NCBI GenBank assembly: GCA_963575745.1
Contig: CAUYUJ010012592.1
Coordinates: 59,510-123,509 of the forward strand
Length of the DNA stretch: 64,000 bases
Source of the DNA: Prorocentrum cordatum
Lineage: Eukaryota > Sar > Dinophyceae > Prorocentrales > Prorocentraceae
Direction: 5' to 3'
The position numbers and the translations under genes were made by a program. Below, one piece after another: positions 46,370 through 55,020 of this stretch. Within the stretch, counting starts at the first letter, position 1. Every line of letters starts with the position of its first letter. Below the pieces are notes generated by a model that searched no databases, was not told the origin of the DNA, and was given only the letters and a program-made list of their open reading frames with translations.

Positions 46370-47600
46370 TTCTCCAGCCTCGCCGCCCGCTTCTCGCGAG
46401 TCGCTGGCCCAGAGCTCGCACGCCGTGGCAGCACGCTGTCACTGTGTGCTTCTCGCACGCACGCTTGGGCAGCCCCGCTGCCACTGCCTGCTTGCTTCCC
46501 CCTTTTCGCACGAATGGATTTCCTCCACTCCTGCTCTCGCACAACGGGCTGATCTCTGCACTGTAACTGAGGGTAGCTCGTCCGTGCCCTGCCATTTCGC
46601 GCCAGAGCCCGTTCGTTGGCCCCTGCACTTCTCGCACGCGCTGCTTCTAGCAAGTGTAGCTAGATAGAGTCGGGCTCCAACTTTGCCTCCCGCTTCTCCC
46701 AGCGCACGGTGGTGGCTAGGAAGGTGACGTTTGGCTCCAGCATTGCTTCCCTCTTCTCGCAGCGGCTTGCCCAGATCCCAACGCTGTAGCAGACGACGTC
46801 GGGCTCTGCCTTCGCCTCCCACTTCTCGCAGGATGGCGCTCTTCTCGCACACACTGTTCCCAGAGGTGTTAGCTCTGCCTTTGTCTCCCACTTCGCGCAG
46901 GGTGGCGCTCTTCTCGCACACACTGTTCCCAGAGGTGTTAGCTATATGACGTGTGGCTCCAGCTTTGCCTCCCTCTTCTCGTAGCGGGTTGCCCCGATCC
47001 CAACGCTGTAGCTGTCGACATCGGGCTCTGCCTTCGCCTCCCACTTCTCGCAGGATGGCCGCGGCAGAACATTGCTCGCTTTTCTCGCACGTACTGTTCC
47101 CAGAGGCGTTAGCTAGAAGAGACACTCGGGCTCCAGCTTCGCCTCCCTCTTTTCGCCGCGGCTTGCCCCGATCCCAACGCTGTAGCTGTCGACATCGGGC
47201 TCTGCCTTCGCCTCCCACTTCTCGCAGGATGGCCGCGGCAGAACATTGCTCGCTTTTCTCACCCGCGCTGTTCCCAGAGGCGTTAGCTAGAAGAGGCAGT
47301 CGGGCTCCAGCTTCACCTCCCGCTTCTCGCAGGCCCTCCTTCTCCCACGGACGACTCCCAGCGTTGCAGCTGGTCGTGGCCCACCCGCGCACTTTGCACG
47401 GCGCCAGCGTCCGCTGCCACTGCGCGCTCCCTTTCTCGCACGGATTGCTCCCAGCGTTGTAGCTGATCGTGGCCCGCCCGCGCCTTCGTCCCTGTCGCAG
47501 CGCCAGCTCTGGCTGCCACTGCTTGCTTTTTCGCAGCGTCAGCTCTGCCTGCCACTGCTGGTCTTCTCTCACGGCCTGATCCCTGCGCTGTAGCTGATCA
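46370..47600 (+). repeat. degenerate tandem array with CTTCTCGCA motif
   Basis: The best-conserved part (46720-47300) consists of units of about 155-220 bp containing GATCCCAACGCTGTAGC, CATCGGGCTCTGCCTTCGCC, CCCACTTCTCGCAGGATGGC and CACTGTTCCCAGAGG. Flanking sequence repeats shorter pieces (CCCGCTTCTCGCA, CCCAGCGTTGTAGCTGATCG). Confidence 0.85.
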
Positions 47601-47891
47601 CGACTCTGTTGTCCCCGCACTCTGCCCGCGGCGCCGCATCGGTTGGCGCCCCAGTCTGCCAGGAGGTGGAGGAGGGTGGAGACGGAGAGGAGGAGGAGGG
47701 GGCGGGAGGGGGCGGGCATCCTGGCAGCTGCGCGTTCGCCTGATCTCAGCGTTGTAGCTGATGACGTGGGGCTCCGCGCTGCTTCTTCATGACTCGGGCA
47801 CGCAGCGCTACTTCGAAGTTTGCGCGCCGCATCGTCCAGGGGGCCCGGTGCAGGGTGGGGGGGCCGTTCGGACGCGAAATGGCGAGGAGGA

Positions 47892-47898
47892 TTTTTTT
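47892..47898 (-). other. LINE poly(A) end
   Basis: A7 on the element strand directly abuts the target duplication, marking the 3' terminus produced by target-primed reverse transcription. The 3' UTR after the ORF2 stop is only about 25 nt. Confidence 0.85.
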
Positions 47899-47923
47899 GA
47901 GCTCCACGCTCTCCTCTGAGTCC

Positions 47924-50900
47924 TTAAGGATCTGACGCCAGCTGCAACGAGGCGGTGCAGCAGGCCTTGTTTAAAAAATAGGCATACGTGTTGAAGCGCT
48001 GCATTAAATTGCCGACATCAGCCGTTACACCCGCTTTCTGCTGCCTATAATGCGGGTGTTTGCCTTTGCACGGGGCTTCCCAGCCGTACTTCGCTGCGCG
48101 CGACGGAGGCGGCTGGCACTTGGCGGCTAACCCGCGGACAGAGGCTCCACTGGAATGCGCCTTGCACCTAGTGCAAATAAATAAAACCGAGCCATCGGAG
48201 CAATCGAACGCTATCGTACGGTGCTCGAGGGTGTCCTGACTGGACGCGTGAAGCCGAGAAACCTGAGAGCAGACACCTGGTGGGGGCCTACTCTGAGATC
48301 GCTTGCCTCTGAGGCAAACTGCACAGCGCCACACTCCAGACCACATTTCCCAGCGATGACCAGCGGATGCTGCAGCAGCGGCTGGCGGGGCTGGAATTCG
48401 GCCTGCCTCGGAGAGGTCCAAGGTAGGCCACGCATGCATTACATGGGCCGCCAGCCTAATTGTCTGGCGCGCCTGCGTGACAAGCTTAGCTGCAGCCGCT
48501 AGCTTGACAGGACACGAAGGATGCAGATGCACGGCATGCTTGGCTGCCACGTCAGCGTGATGGTTGCCGAGGCGCCTCCAGCGCTCGGCAGCGTCGATAC
48601 CCGCCTCATCCAGCTCCTTGTGAGCTGCGACTTTTGTGCACGTGGAAGGCGTGATACCTTGGGCATAGAGTTGGAGGAAAGCCCCTGAGTAGGCCCTCTT
48701 CCCACACAGCTGCTCGGCCTTGGGCCGACAGGCCAATTTGACCACATTGCTGCAATCAGAGAACACATCGATGCAGGCCGACGCGAGCACATTGGCCCAA
48801 GTCCAGCAGCTGAACTCGGCCGATTGAGGCGTCTGAGGATATGGGGCCCACACGGGTGCCCGAAACTCGGCGACGGCCGACCCTTGGGCGTCGACCATCA
48901 CCACACTGCTGCCAGCCCGAGAGAGCTCCCGAACAGTGTGACGGCTGCTAGAGCCATCGATGAAAACGTTACCCCACACTTCAATGCCAGGAGTAGCCCC
49001 AGAGGGCGACGAGATATCTTGGTGGTGCCACGCAAGAAACGGGCCATTTTCCGTCTCAGTGAGGGGCCTAGGGAACCCGTCGGCGGGGTGGCGGAACGCC
49101 CCAGATATAAACACGAACACAGCTTCCTCGTCGTCCTTAGCTGTTAAGGCTTCGGCTACAGTGCTAGCGTCCACTAGAGAAGATCTAAGCTCAGCCACTG
49201 GCTCGTGGGGGCACTCCCACAACCGGTGGAAGATCGTGTCCGAGGCGCCGCAGAACGGGCAACTGCCGTCCACGACGTAGCCTAAGCTCACAGCACGATC
49301 TCCAGTGAGAAAGGCTTCGGTGGCGAACGCTCTAATGTGGGCCTTCTGGAGGGCCGTGTATTTCTTGGAGGCTAGGGCCTCGCGTAGCACATCACAGCAT
49401 ATCCTAGGGAGCACTCCCCTCTTTTCGGCGGAGAGGCGCTCCAACATCCTAAAATAACCGTCCTTGAGCATGATCCTGAACAAGGCAGGCGAGATAATGC
49501 CGAGGGGAATAGTGAAGCCACGGTCATCTCGCACCGTCATGAAGTTGTCCATGCACCAGCCCAGCCTAACCAGGGACATCCGAAGGGCCGACACGGGGCC
49601 CGCGACCGCTCTCCAGGAGCAGGCAGGGTTGGAGAACACAGCTTCCCACGCACGACGCAGCGAGGGAAAACCCAAACCCCGAGAGTAGGCCCCAGTCTGG
49701 GCCAGCCAGATCTCCTTGGACCAACGGAGGATGGGGGCGGTGGCAGTGCGCCAGCACGGATCATAATCGAGCAGAGCCGCCGTCGTCAGAGATCTCAACT
49801 GAGATCGAGGTCGGACCACCGAGAAAACTTGACGACGGAGGCGAAGCAACTCAAGGTCGCTAGCGCCAGTAATTTCAGTGCCATACGAAGCCCCCGAGAG
49901 GGGCCCCGAGGAAAACACCCTGAGGACCTGCGGCCGAGAGATGACTTTATTCTGACGCTTTAACCTCTTGGCCGCCCTCGCAGCCTTGGCGATGCGCATT
50001 TTTGACTTCACCGAGCGCCCCGCCACCCTAAGCGCGCGGCCAGCCGTGTAGTCAGCGCCTAAGTTGACAGCACTCGACGTAAAATTACCTCCTAAATGCG
50101 AAATCTCAAAAGAAACCTCATCCCCTAAGGCCTTCGAGGAAGCAACAACAGCGGTCTTGTCCAGGGCGAGGGAGCAACCGAAACAAGACTCAACGATGGC
50201 GTGGAGCGCCTTGGCCCCTTCGATGATCGATTTGACCACGGTCCGATGTTGGCCCGTGCGCGAGAGACCCTGGTCGTCAATATACACATCGAGGTCGAAC
50301 CTGGGGATGGAGGGAAGGGAATCGTATCCGTCCTGGCAGAAGACACGAATGAACGTGGTGGCCATCGAACACCCAGCGATAACCCCATTCAGGCAGAAGT
50401 AGGGGCCTTCCAGCCACCCTCCTAGACAGAGAAAGCGCCCACACCTGTAGGCATAAATGCAAAGACGGGCTATCGCAAGAGGGAACCCATGTTTCTTGCA
50501 ACGGGCCTCGAGCTCTTTCAGACTGATGTTCTCATAGAACTTGCGAAGACCGAAGAGAACAGAACATGGGGACTCCCCGATGGCAAGACCCGTCTCGGCG
50601 GTGACAGCTTGACGCCAAACCACATCGGCAGCTCCACGAAACCTACCAGCAGCCCAGTACCGTTTGGGGTGTTCTTGCTCCCAGTTCAAGGCAAAGGGCC
50701 GCCGACAGCGGCCCCAAACCCTGAACCAGGAGCAGAACACCCCAATCGGCCTGTAGCCACCAGTAGGCTTCGGCAGAAGAGCCAAAGTGACGACTGAGAT
50801 CTGCGGAGGAAGACAGCCTAGCGCTTCCATGACCGAAAAAATGGCACTGAGGCAGTCAAGAGCAGCATCTGGGAACAGAGAGAAATGCTTGCAGTGAAAT

Positions 50901-52792
50901 CCGTCCACAGCCACGGCCGAAGAATCTTTGTAGGACTTAGAGATATCACGGGTTTCGCTGGCCGTGGGTCGCGGAAGAGGCTCGATGACCTGACCATCAA
51001 ACTCGGCACCTCGACCCTCACCCCATATACTGCTGAACCTCTCTCCCTCAGCCTTGAGCAGAGAGAGAGAGGATCACTGACGACGCACCCAGCAGCAGAG
51101 AGAGTCGAAGAGGGGACCCACGGAACAGGATCTTTAATGAATTGATGAACCCTTTTCGCTCCCTTATTGATGCCTACATGTAGCCAAGCAGCCCAGTCTG
51201 ATCGGCTCTTGGCGGCGTACTTGGTGCTGGCGGCCTTGACGGCCTCGTGAAACTGAGTGTACATATCAGCGAGCGACTCAACATCCCCACCAGAACCAAG
51301 GGCGGAGACCTCCTGAGCCGTTCGCTTGAACAGCGGCTCGTAGTCTTCCACGGCGGCCGAGATGCTGGGCGGGGGCTCCACCAACACGCAACTGAGCCTG
51401 GCAGCAGTGGCGGCAGCGCCTCCGCGCCGAGCGTGCACGAAGGCGCGAAGCTGTTGCCCAAGCCAACGGATCGCGCGATGACCAGGATAACGCACCTTAC
51501 CATCCTGGCCCAAGATAGGTTTCCACACAAGTTGAGGACCCAAGCCCCTGGAGCCTAACTTGGGGGGGGGCAACGCCCACCAGGGGAATAAGGTCACGTT
51601 CAGCATGGTCGGCCCACTTCCTGTAGAGAGGGCCCAGAAGACGTTTGGCCCCCTGCCCGTCCCCATTCTGGAGACAACGTTCAGCCTCGGACGCCGGCGC
51701 AAGTTCCCCAGCCCAACAACTTTCTCTGGGGGCAGGGCCGAAGACAGCCTGACACGGCAGGGGGGGGGGCTTCCTGAACGAGAGAGCGTGAAGCACCGCC
51801 AGCTTGGGGTGGAACACCAACTGGACGGGCCTATGGGGGGAGAGCTCCGTATCCAATCGCGTATCGACCGACTTGAGACCTTTCGCAAGACCGCCCGAAC
51901 AAACGAAGTAGTCGAACGTCGTGGGAGGGCCCGCAGGATAGTGCGTAGCGGCAACGGGGAAGATGAGGGAAGCCCTCAACTCCGACACAAAACTGGGCGA
52001 CTCGAGCTCGGCAGGCTCCAGATTAAAGTCGGCACCGAGCACCCACGGCTGGCCTACAGCAGAAAGTTGCTCGCCGAGCCTCGCGAGCAGCGACAGATTA
52101 TCATCGCTGAGGCCTTCTGAGTGGTGAAGGTAGGCGGAAGCAACCAGGATGGGGGGAGTCCCAGGGAGGTGCGCAGAACACGCGATGCATCGCCCAGGCG
52201 TCGTGATGGCATCCTCGACCTCCAGAAGCCCCATCCAGGAACGCACGAAAATGGCAACACCCCCACTCGTGTCCTGCGCTTGGGTGGGGATAGCAGGGGC
52301 CCAGACCGACTTCCATCCATGCCTTATGCACCAAGCACTGGCCTGCTCGATGTCCTCTTTGGAAATCAGACGGTACTCCTGACCGAGCACAATGTGGGCA
52401 GAGCAATCTTCGAGCAAACCCTTCAACGTACCCCGCGAGTTGGCGTTAATGGTCTGAATCGTGAGTGGCACCAAACTGTCAGAGTTAGAGGCCGATTGCT
52501 GCTCGCTGCCGGCAAGAGGAGCAGGCACAGGCAGGCTGACATTGCTGACAGAGTGAGCTGGCGACTTGAAACAGTCAGAGGGGTGCTGAGCCCTCTGAGA
52601 ATCCAAGGGTTCGAATTTGCCCTTGGAACATCCTGGCGTTAAATGTCCGAGCGCGACGAGCTCAACGTGGGGGCGAGATCCCCCCTCCACGGGGGGGCAA
52701 ACAGAAGTGGCCACGTGCGGGACAGCCCCGTCCGTGGCATCCTTGCGCGCTGGCTTACCAAGGGAGAGCACAGGATACAGTGCCCTTGGCAT
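47924..52792 (-). CDS. LINE ORF2: endonuclease, reverse transcriptase, RNase H (two frameshifts)
   Basis: Drives target-primed reverse transcription. The endonuclease (about 52460-51810) shows TINANS, GQEYRL, GGVAIFVR, GADFNLEP, TTFDYFV and SPHRP, the APE-type pattern with SPH for the usual SDH. The reverse transcriptase (about 51010-50000) shows LLPKPTGGYRPIGVF, KFYENISL and the catalytic DVYIDDQG near 50280. A zinc-binding CPFCGASDTIFHRLWECPHE lies at about 49205-49262. The RNase H (about 48975-48530) has NVFIDGSSS, SAEF, SDCSN and GNHHADVAAK. A cysteine-rich tail ends at the stop codon. Reading shifts frame at a nine-base homopolymer (51562-51570) and shifts back at a GA run (51064-51077), with no other damage. 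The start is the first ATG after ORF1; the same frame is open farther upstream, so coupled translation is possible. Confidence 0.85.
51064..51077 (-). other. frameshift site 2 in ORF2 (GA run)
   Basis: The frame carrying KSRSDWAAWLHVGINKGAK is left, and the reverse-transcriptase frame is re-entered inside CTCTCTCTCTCT (minus strand). Slippage or a sequencing error is likely. Confidence 0.75.
51562..51570 (-). other. frameshift site 1 in ORF2 (C9 on element strand)
   Basis: The endonuclease frame (RDLIPLVGVAPP) passes to the next frame (KLGSRGLGPQLVWKPILG) across this homopolymer. Confidence 0.75.
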
Positions 52793-53030
52793 CGCAAAGT
52801 CCAGCAAAGACACAGGGGCAGAGACAGGGGTCCGGTCTGCCTTGCGACGAAGCGCTCCCCTCTTGCGGATGAGGGCAGCTTGCGCTACGGAGCGGAACTC
52901 CGTGTGCAGAAGTATATTACGTGTTTCACCCCCCCCCTGGAGGCAGCCTTCCGAGCGAAGGACCTGCGGACCCCAATCGACCGACGACTCGAGGAGGCGA
53001 CGAGCATCAGGGCTGGCCTCCAGAGGGTAG

Positions 53031-54371
53031 CTAATCGTTGACTGCGTGAGTGGCCGCGGCAATGCGGTCAGCGCGCTCACGAGCAGTGCCTGTCGCAGAA
53101 GGCGTGGTCGGAGCAGCTGCCGCAGCACCCGCTGCGCCTGAAGAGGCGGCACCGCCTCCGCCTGGTACAGCTCCAGGAAGAAGTGGAACGCCCTTGCCCG
53201 CGAACTGGCCGACCGTGGCTGCCTGCGGAGTGCCGGGAGCAGGTGCCGCGCCTGGCGCCGCCTCGGCAGCAGGCGGCGGGGCTGCGCCATCATCTCCTTC
53301 GGCGGGGGGTGCACCAGCATCAGGAGGTTCCTCGAAGGGTGCTTCCTGCTCCACTCGAGGCCGCTTGGCCGCAAGCCTCTTGATGTGCTGCGCGTGGGCG
53401 GACTTGGGGCCATCGACCTTCTGCTTGGCCTCGGCGAAGAGGGTGCCCGCCATCGCCGTGAGCCCTGCCTTGAGCTGTTGCACGCGTGACTCAATCTCGA
53501 TGTTGTCAGACTCGTCAAGCTCCACACCGTCACACCTGAACAGGTCCGAAACGCTGATGTCGAAGACTTTCGCGAGACGCTCCTGATCCATGATGTCCTC
53601 CAGAGCAGGCTTGACCGTGGAAGTGGGTGGCTGCTTAGGCGCCTCTTGAGACTCGACCAATTCCTGCAAGATAATCGCGTGCTCGCCTTCTGCATTGGTG
53701 AGCTCCGTGCGCAGCTCCAGCACCGCAGTCTTCTGAATGTTGAGCTGAGCTTCGTACTGTTCGTACTTCTCAACTGCAGCCTCCAAACGTTTGTTGATCC
53801 CGTGCACCTTCCAGTGGGCCCGATTGAGCCGAACCTGAATAGCTTCTTCTTCCTGCTTCGGCGCGGTGAGGGCTTTGGCTGCACGGCGATGGGCTGCTGC
53901 GCCTGCAGAGTCTCCCATGCGTTCAGCGAAGCCTGCCATGGTCTCGTACTCCGCGGCGGTGAACTTTGCTGCAGCGACACCAGCAGGAGCGGGTTGATGG
54001 CCTCCTCCCTTGGGGTTGCCGCCTCCAGCTCCTTTCTGTTGCTGCCCAACGTCGCCACCGCCTGGACCCTTGCCCCACGTAGCGCCACCGTTGAGCTGCC
54101 CGTAGCCGAACAACTGACGCGCTGCATCTCCTGACCATGCCGAAGTTGGATCTTGCTTGTAGGCTCCACAGTGTTTGCAATAATAGAACCGAGCGGCGTT
54201 CTTGGCGCAGCCGCAAGCCTGGCACTTCCACTTCTTGCCTGGCAGCTGGTTGGCGGCCTGATCCTGCACACCGCCGCCGCCCTTGCAGAACAGAGGACCA
54301 GGCACAAGAGGAGGCCAAACTTCGCTGTAGGACATGCCTTTGCCTCCGCCCTTTGCCTTGCCCCACGCCAT
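53031..54371 (-). CDS. LINE ORF1 protein
   Basis: 446 residues, ATG at 54369-54371 (MAWGKAKGGGKG), intact to the stop. Residues about 45-75 hold CQACGCAKNAARFYYCKHCG, a CxxC-x(11)-CxxC zinc ribbon of the RanBP2-like sort suited to RNA binding. A glycine/alanine/glutamine-rich linker follows. Residues about 170-230 form a probable coiled coil (EEEAIQVRLNRAHWKVHGIN, then ELRTELTNAEGEHAIILQEL), and an acidic stretch with VQQLKAGLTAMAGTLFAEAK follows. The C-terminus is alanine/proline-rich. ORF1 products of LINEs coat the element RNA in trimers or larger assemblies, and that role is inferred here. It lies about 175 nt after the leader and overlaps, in another frame, an open extension of ORF2. Confidence 0.85.
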   Translation of the reverse strand: MAWGKAKGGGKGMSYSEVWPPLVPGPLFCKGGGGVQDQAANQLPGKKWKCQACGCAKNAARFYYCKHCGAYKQDPTSAWSGDAARQLFGYGQLNGGATWGKGPGGGDVGQQQKGAGGGNPKGGGHQPAPAGVAAAKFTAAEYETMAGFAERMGDSAGAAAHRRAAKALTAPKQEEEAIQVRLNRAHWKVHGINKRLEAAVEKYEQYEAQLNIQKTAVLELRTELTNAEGEHAIILQELVESQEAPKQPPTSTVKPALEDIMDQERLAKVFDISVSDLFRCDGVELDESDNIEIESRVQQLKAGLTAMAGTLFAEAKQKVDGPKSAHAQHIKRLAAKRPRVEQEAPFEEPPDAGAPPAEGDDGAAPPPAAEAAPGAAPAPGTPQAATVGQFAGKGVPLLPGAVPGGGGAASSGAAGAAAAAPTTPSATGTARERADRIAAATHAVND

Positions 54372-54544
54372 GCCGCAAGTGTGGCTCTAAGGACTGACCA
54401 CCGACCAGCGCACAGCCTAGTCGTGGTGAACGCTGCGATGCGTGGGGCGGACCACGCACCGCTCAGCCTGGGGCGGACCAGGCGACAGATGAAAGCTGGC
54501 CGCGGGCTAGCGGTATCCACTTTGTTCCCAGGGGAAACCAAAAC

Positions 54545-54566
54545 CTTGAGCCAAAATGGCTACGGA
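54545..54566 (-). other. complete DinoSL sequence at LINE 5' end
   Basis: On the minus strand the 22 nt start TCCGTAGCC, continue ATTTTGG and end CTCAAG, identical to the dinoflagellate spliced leader (5' D = T). The first base is shared with the target duplication. The leader is normally added in trans to nuclear mRNAs and is not encoded with genes. Its presence here shows that the inserted copy came from mature trans-spliced RNA. Confidence 0.95.
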
Positions 54567-55020
54567 AATGGCGAGGAGGAGGAGGAGGAGGAGGAGGAGG
54601 AGGAGGGAGGAGGAGGAGGAAGAGGAGGAGGAGAGGAGGAGGAGGAGGAGGAGTGAGGAGGAAGAAAAGGAGGAAGAGGAGGAGGAGGAGGAGGGGGAGG
54701 AGGAGGGAGGAGGAGGAGGAGGAGGAGGAGGAGGAGGAGGGAGAAGGAGGAGGAGGAGGAGTGAAGAGGAGGAGGAGGAGGAGGGGAGGGAGAGGAGGAG
54801 AGAGGAGGGAGGAGGAGGAGGAAGACGAGGAGGAGAGAGGGGAGGAGGAGGAGGGAGGAGGAGGAGGTGAGGGGAGGGAGCGCAGCAGGGGAGGAGGAGG
54901 AGGAGGAGCAGGCGGAGGCGGAATCGGAGGCGGAGGCGGAGGAGGAAGAGGAAAAGGAGGAGGAGGAGGAGGAGGAAAAGGAGGAGGAGGAGGAGGAGGA
55001 GGAGGAGGAGGAGGAAGAGG
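54567..55020 (+). repeat. GGA/GAG microsatellite
   Basis: Purine-only for about 450 bp. It continues the GGA triplets present in the LINE target duplication. Confidence 0.97.

Follow-up and report, generated by a model that had tools for sequence, protein, structure and literature searches.

The stretch of DNA analysed here (the window) comprises 64,000 nucleotides of Prorocentrum cordatum (contig CAUYUJ010012592.1, positions 59,510 to 123,509) and contains a long interspersed nuclear element (LINE) that begins with the dinoflagellate spliced leader (DinoSL). From the leader to the A tail, the element spans 6,674 bp of the minus strand (47892–54565). An initial annotation had described a full-length LINE with a complete 22-nt DinoSL at its 5' end, A7 at the opposite end and an identical 15-bp duplication outside both, and the leader, the tail and the duplication were found, together with an endonuclease and a reverse transcriptase. 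The leader (54545–54566, minus strand) matches DinoSL at 22 of 22 positions and is the sole match in the window at up to three mismatches, with none in 100 shuffles. The A7 tail, read as T7 on the plus strand, occupies 47892–47898 (minus strand), and the two identical copies of the 15-nt target-site duplication, AAATGGCGAGGAGGA, which were paired by script, lie at 47877–47891 on the 3' side of the element and at 54566–54580 on its 5' side. Base 54566 therefore enters both counts, as leader nt 1 and as the duplication's first nucleotide. Given that a T precedes CCGTAG in 79 of 88 sampled leader loci, this overlap is probably due to chance, and the leader described as complete comprises 21 unambiguous nucleotides. 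The body of the element follows, with its initial 21 nt, GTTTTGGTTTCCCCTGGGAAC, at 54524–54544 (minus strand), and an imperfect (AGG/CCT)n microsatellite at 54573–54900, the insertion target, places (CCT)n just upstream of the leader in the sense of the element.

The coding content, all on the minus strand, starts with ORF1 (53031–54371), a reading frame of 446 amino acids with a CxxC zinc-finger-like stretch and weak Pfam matches (best E = 0.066). It is followed by an APE-type endonuclease (Exo_endo_phos, PF03372, E = 1.1e-9) at 51877–52444, corresponding to residues 699–888 of the frame 51497–54541, by a middle piece of the endonuclease–reverse transcriptase region in a different frame without a Pfam match (50818–51954), and by a frame that contains the reverse transcriptase (YIDD) and RNase H-like motifs recognised by eye (47924–50914). 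The reverse transcriptase matched RVT_1 at E = 0.0017, below the curated cut-off, whereas its homologues P0001 and P0002 scored above it and align their YVDD with the YIDD of the window. Three such homologous matches were obtained among 8,000 candidates scored, and P0002 and P0003 are labelled P. cordatum. Since the endonuclease–reverse transcriptase region is split over three overlapping frames (51497–54541, 50818–51954 and 47924–50914), this copy looks broken and is probably inactive; the description as full-length thus holds for the ends of the element but not for its coding region. The A tail, the target duplications, the existence of sister copies without a 5' end and the lack of long terminal repeats are those of a LINE, even though the window copy has no intact endonuclease–reverse transcriptase frame. 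The element also resembles a DinoSL retrogene, being a reverse-transcribed copy that starts with the leader in the genome, but it encodes an endonuclease and a reverse transcriptase, which does not correspond to a host protein-coding origin. Judged by these sequence features, it is a non-long-terminal-repeat retrotransposon of the APE type.

We searched the genome (4.128 Gb, 21,875 contigs) for the exact first 21 nt of the body, a query that is blind to the upstream sequence and favours young copies. It was found at 90 sites (53 + 37; control 0), and inspection of all of them revealed the leader directly upstream of the body in 90 of 90. This tally of 5' ends, which the initial annotation had proposed, gave 79 single leaders, nine leaders followed by a 15-nt relic, one doubled full leader (L156, by eye) and one leader beside an assembly gap (L187), of which the last 13 nt are visible. 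Eight of the relics were called by script and the ninth, in L155, by eye, its outer leader being truncated. The 81 leaders called single by script, L155 and L156 included, were exact over 21 nt in 63 cases and carried 1–3 edits in the others. Among the 90 exact matches no body start lacked a leader and none had shared sequence in its place, so that copies extending upstream into common leaderless sequence, named beforehand as the observation that would speak against the proposal, were not seen; a few groups do share some flank beyond the leader. The spliced leader is thus the regular 5' boundary of this LINE family. Because it occurs on many separate contigs, a local assembly artefact, a concern already raised in the initial annotation, is ruled out, and an origin of the leader by artefact or chance can practically be dismissed in view of the shuffles, the census (one of whose 90 leaders is partial) and the presence of duplications in unique sequence.

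Some census sites may not be independent, since about 60–110 nt of upstream flank are shared within the groups L161/L201, L067/L071/L180, L189/L190 and L080/L199, and perhaps sequence is also shared within L065/L171/L200. The flanks of L161/L201, L067/L071 and L080/L199 diverge further out. Such sharing could possibly reflect 5' transduction by a read-through RNA or recombination between TCC tracts.

Searches with the two ends of the element gave a concordant picture. With the 3' end (651 bp), the best 40 of 142 candidates were scored and showed 87–96% identity, apart from the window itself; with the 5' end (701 bp), 45 matches were obtained, the best 40 of 1,081 candidates being scored. Of the 40 best 3' ends, 28 were paired with a 5'-end match on the same contig and strand, 26 of them at a distance of 5.9–6.8 kb and two at 13.7 and 16.7 kb; the 5' match was incomplete in two of the 28 (C5781, which misses an inner stretch, and C14208). 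For the 12 unpaired 3' ends, the 451 bp surrounding the position predicted for the 5' end contained nothing of the element; these copies are either truncated at the 5' end, as LINE copies can be, or rearranged. The leader opens each of the 30 5' loci examined, slightly altered in some. An A-rich tail was found by script in 22 of 30 copies, including the one in the window. Two of the 30 5' loci, L063 and L075, carry a leader and a relic and were placed in different clades of the tree. The LINE 5' end of L199 (with L231) agrees with that of L080 over about 100 nt before the two sequences part; five further matches of the 5'-end search likewise stop near query nt 209–211 and are possibly non-autonomous relatives.

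Insertion of the LINE is targeted to pyrimidine (TCC)n tracts. In the 50 nt before the leader, measured in 89 census copies, at least 85% C+T was observed in 82, compared with 1.06% for the window background, and AG was absent in 83, compared with 9.7%. CTCCTCC was present within 24 nt of the leader in 79 of the 90 copies, and the copies are thus enriched in one sequence and one orientation, as is typical of a target-specific LINE. L074 and L150 are clear exceptions to the pyrimidine-rich flank. A target duplication of at least 10 nt was detected in 15 of 18 testable pairs and in none of the remaining three, with a script that tolerated as many as 3 and 6 additional bases where the element joins its flanks. 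Seven of these 15 duplications consist solely of TCC and are uninformative, whereas six include clearly other sequence (L009/L059, 15 nt; L021/L074, 14; L034/L079, 14; L038/L078, 15; L026/L076, 12; L035/L087, 10). TCC is the first sequence after the A tail in 16 of 30 copies, the tail having been missed by the script in eight, and this would fit a nick of the GGA strand with priming by the A tail.

Leaders are common in this genome: the exact 21-mer occurs 14,218 times (7,201 + 7,017; reversed control 0), 1,202 times with a relic, so that the special feature here is the fixed place of the leader at the 5' end of a LINE family. Among the 7,017 leaders of the reverse strand, where each leader is counted once (forward counts being redundant), CTCCTCC lies within 22 nt upstream of 2,722 (38.8%) and GGAGGAG of 962 (13.7%), against a background of 1.0–3.5% of positions for either motif. 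In a sample consisting of the first 88 of 100 listed leaders, 39 adjoin TCC, 15 GGA and 34 neither, some of the latter lying in CA, CAGACA, TA or TCA repeats. When the initial 280 nt of the 88 loci were clustered together with the window, the window element fell into a cluster of 16 (14 TCC, two neither), while the others were a mostly GGA cluster (3/4), one with neither motif (4/4), smaller mixed groups and 38 singletons. Weak similarity was detected between L001 and the endonuclease (E = 6e-4), and between L003 and L043 and ORF1. L040, L095, L097 and L141 form another leader-tagged repeat family, mostly in GGA tracts, and L041, L092, L101 and L122 a second one, with L041 in a TA repeat and L101 in a CAGACA repeat; several leader-tagged families may thus have their own repeat targets.

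The 5' untranslated region contains a hairpin motif, GGATACCGCTAGCCCGCGG (54500–54518, minus strand), of which similar versions with compensatory changes occur in other leader-tagged sequences. It starts 25–26 nt after the leader or the relic in 7 of 28 sampled loci and in the window. A 4-bp helix is paired in each of the seven distinct sequences, and at two of its four pairs both partners have changed, although the motif used for selection fixes the outer two. The number of both-side-changed cells and the covariation score exceeded those of 500 of 500 shuffles, while 55 of the 500 shuffles attained the observed count of such pairs; the 3-bp helix outside the first is weaker, with 81% pairing. 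The end of the leader, GGCTCAAG, followed by ACCNCTNGNCCGNGG at 10–40 nt, gave 2,028 genome matches (1,027 + 1,001; control 0), a count in which the variable gap may register one site twice. Taken by itself, the motif GTGGATACCGCTAGTCCGCGG has 1,194 matches, and among those listed up to contig C1059, 48 of 61 were also recognised by eye in the list of leader end plus motif. At the remaining 13 sites the leader end is decayed, shifted or absent, and leaderless relatives may be present among them; one of the 13, at C73:29694, corresponds to L139, a locus with a leader and an altered relic. On contig G000:C1381 the motif appears at 274984, 280784 and 286599 on one strand, a spacing of about 5.8 kb that could represent a tandem array. 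Another candidate hairpin, at nt 8–22 after the leader, was rejected as a covarying structure, because 226 of 315 cells were paired compared with 239 and 232 when the partner was slid by 1 and 2 nt; the fold of this region is, however, more stable than those of mononucleotide shuffles (−6.5 versus a mean of −3.8).

From these results, we consider it likely, though far from certain, that this family uses the host spliced leader as its working 5' end and obtains it anew from the host in every round; the structure of the copies suggests that the element uses leader splicing in place of a promoter of its own. The end structure and the target are taken from the sequences, and the order of the steps from the established LINE mechanism. 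An A-tailed LINE RNA would receive DinoSL in trans, the endonuclease of the element would nick the GGA strand of a (GGA/TCC)n tract, and target-primed reverse transcription reaching the cap-proximal end would leave leader, body and A tail between duplications of about 10–15 bp. This agrees with the initial annotation, which had proposed that the LINE RNA was trans-spliced before reverse transcription and that the leader now marks the boundary, and the lack of any leaderless body start among the 90 supports it. The daughter, with no promoter of its own upstream of the body, would be transcribed from outside by read-through. On the sense strand, the next AGs after the long and largely AG-free pyrimidine tract of the target would be those of the retained leader, so that the site would become an acceptor for trans-splicing. 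The AG used for trans-splicing in kinetoplastids usually follows a pyrimidine tract (PMC9639853), and a TTTT box, a start site, a YTNAY branch point and an AG have been proposed for Symbiodinium (PMC6380556, PMC5492045).

Splicing at the last AG of the leader (CAAG|G) would restore exactly one leader, whereas splicing at the internal TAG would leave the 15-nt relic. The 5' end would then normally neither shorten nor grow. The initial annotation had envisaged one added relic per round; relics do exist (9 of 90), but with 79 of 90 copies carrying one leader and no relic they cannot mark the usual round. A daughter with one leader can result from splicing at the last AG or from copying of the leader as template. 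A second full-length leader directly after the first was observed in L156, where it is exact but for the junction G, and, decayed and recognised by eye, in L048, L051 and L112, which suggests that in some cases splicing took place ahead of the old leader rather than at the internal TAG. A relic presupposes a leader in the parent, and leaderless copies of the family did not turn up among the 90 body starts. The best candidate parents are therefore the leader-ended copies, which appear to be re-expressed by read-through and renewed trans-splicing, mostly at the last AG of the leader. The complete proposal, a promoterless LINE lineage in which host trans-splicing replaces the promoter, the pyrimidine microsatellite and the AGs of the leader form a ready acceptor and the host regenerates the 5' end, is more tentative, and as a whole we hold it to be possible rather than probable.

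The variation within the leader bears on whether it is renewed or copied. In 28 relic-free copies, six substitutions were found in 588 leader cells, all of them private, with none of the 21 columns shared and one inserted base, whereas 228 of 1,254 ORF1 columns have shared variants, and the tree is hierarchical. When substitutions were scored in 72 census copies, a variant in at least two copies was seen in just two columns of the leader. One mutated form of the leader begins CCGTATTC.

Several observations weigh against renewal of the leader from the host by splicing within a leader-ended parent. The internal TAG is the first AG after the pyrimidine tract and would be favoured by simple scanning, yet relics are a minority; only 2 of 30 copies contain YTNAY at 10–60 nt upstream, compared with a background of 25.8%; and the 5' match of C14208 starts at body nt 29. 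The 39 nt after the leader are nearly as invariant as the leader itself (one shared column in the 28 relic-free copies), so selection could also explain the clean leaders. A G-to-T change at leader position 6 is common to L080, L199 and L206, and a C-to-T change at position 7 to L080 and L199. The wider flanks of L080 and L199 are unrelated, but about 60 nt adjoining the leader are shared, from which it follows that this leader was copied and not renewed; the cause would be either insertion of a read-through RNA that had not been spliced, a 5' transduction, or recombination between TCC tracts. One G is missing at the leader–body junction in five of the 90 copies (L156, L175, L179, L189 and L190), and this loss may be inherited. 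The private mutations were discarded as proof of renewal, being too weak an argument beside the near-invariant 39 nt and the two census loci with a common changed leader.

Part of this evidence would favour a leader captured once and now carried as element sequence, with the RNA starting at or upstream of it and no new trans-splicing. The mutated leader of L080/L199 shared together with its flank, the junction G missing from five copies and the near-invariance of the following 39 nt would all be expected. However, relics and the doubled leader of L156 need repeated leader addition, leader variants are nearly all private, and quite different bodies carry the same leader end, which makes this explanation quite improbable. 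The master-copy model is standard for many LINE and short interspersed nuclear element families. Applied here, a few leaderless loci with a promoter would make all the RNA, which would be trans-spliced once, and the leader-ended copies would be dead on arrival. It accounts for most copies having one leader and no relic, but no leaderless locus appeared among the 90 exact body starts, although a master with a changed start or one left unassembled would escape this search, and relic copies, found in different clades (L063 and L075), need leader-ended parents; we regard it as rather unlikely. A further explanation, compatible with the other models, is that the TCC tracts are the endonuclease target and have no role in expression. 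Nick specificity suffices to give a pyrimidine flank, as the TCC after many A tails illustrates, and many leaders across the genome adjoin GGA or neither motif. The near-uniform orientation and a tract mostly free of AG that ends at the leader would suit a role as acceptor, yet target choice alone gives the same arrangement, and we find the arguments for and against this explanation evenly balanced.

Slamovits and Keeling reportedly described dinoflagellate retrogenes with DinoSL relics in 2008. Such relics are now well known (PMC12014239, PMC7245778, PMC6050394), and these retrogenes resemble the LINE in that a trans-spliced mRNA was re-inserted with a leader or a 15-nt relic at its genomic 5' end; they are, however, host genes, whereas here the mobile element itself has the leader as its regular end. 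The type of element that mediates retroposition is given as unknown, with LTR copia favoured (PMC6050394), and 496 and 244 leaders are reported for two Symbiodinium genomes (PMC8045281). The trypanosomatid L1Tc/ingi elements (PMC8190864) are also LINEs in a host with spliced-leader trans-splicing. A hepatitis delta virus (HDV)-like ribozyme at the 5' end is a feature of the L1Tc/ingi clade; the window element instead ends with the leader, and no Rfam match at E ≤ 1 was obtained in 53900–54700, a search that a divergent ribozyme could escape. Target-specific LINEs, including those of microsatellites (PMC4640811), likewise insert into simple repeats in a fixed orientation, but here an APE-type endonuclease, a TCC target and leader-ended copies are combined. 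In dinoRNAV endogenous viral elements (PMC10235124), DinoSL lies within 500 bp of the retroposed sequence for 6 of 26 RNA-dependent RNA polymerase reading frames; in that case a viral RNA was passively mobilised, unlike an autonomous element. A LINE with a spliced leader as its end was not found in the literature searched, whose coverage leaves out most subscription journals.

LINEs must carry their own promoter or lose it at each insertion. A 5' end supplied by trans-splicing would be another, testable answer to this problem. The system is also relevant to the still open identity of the element that dispersed thousands of DinoSL-tagged sequences across dinoflagellate genomes, since a LINE is here tied directly to the leader and to a TCC target that is also found at 39 of the 88 sampled leader-tagged loci. 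If a promoterless lineage of this kind exists, its machinery would explain part of the leader-tagged retrogenes of dinoflagellates.

Leaders also occur outside this context. A viral contig from IMG/VR (L089, 7,157 bp) contains two exact DinoSL copies on the minus strand, at 2746–2766 and 2893–2913, 147 nt apart in AT-rich surroundings; this was the one viral contig in which leaders were found, and no link to the LINE was seen in the 120 nt after each of them. In the window, a frame of 426 amino acids composed of internal repeats (46439–47719) adjoins the 3' flank of the element.

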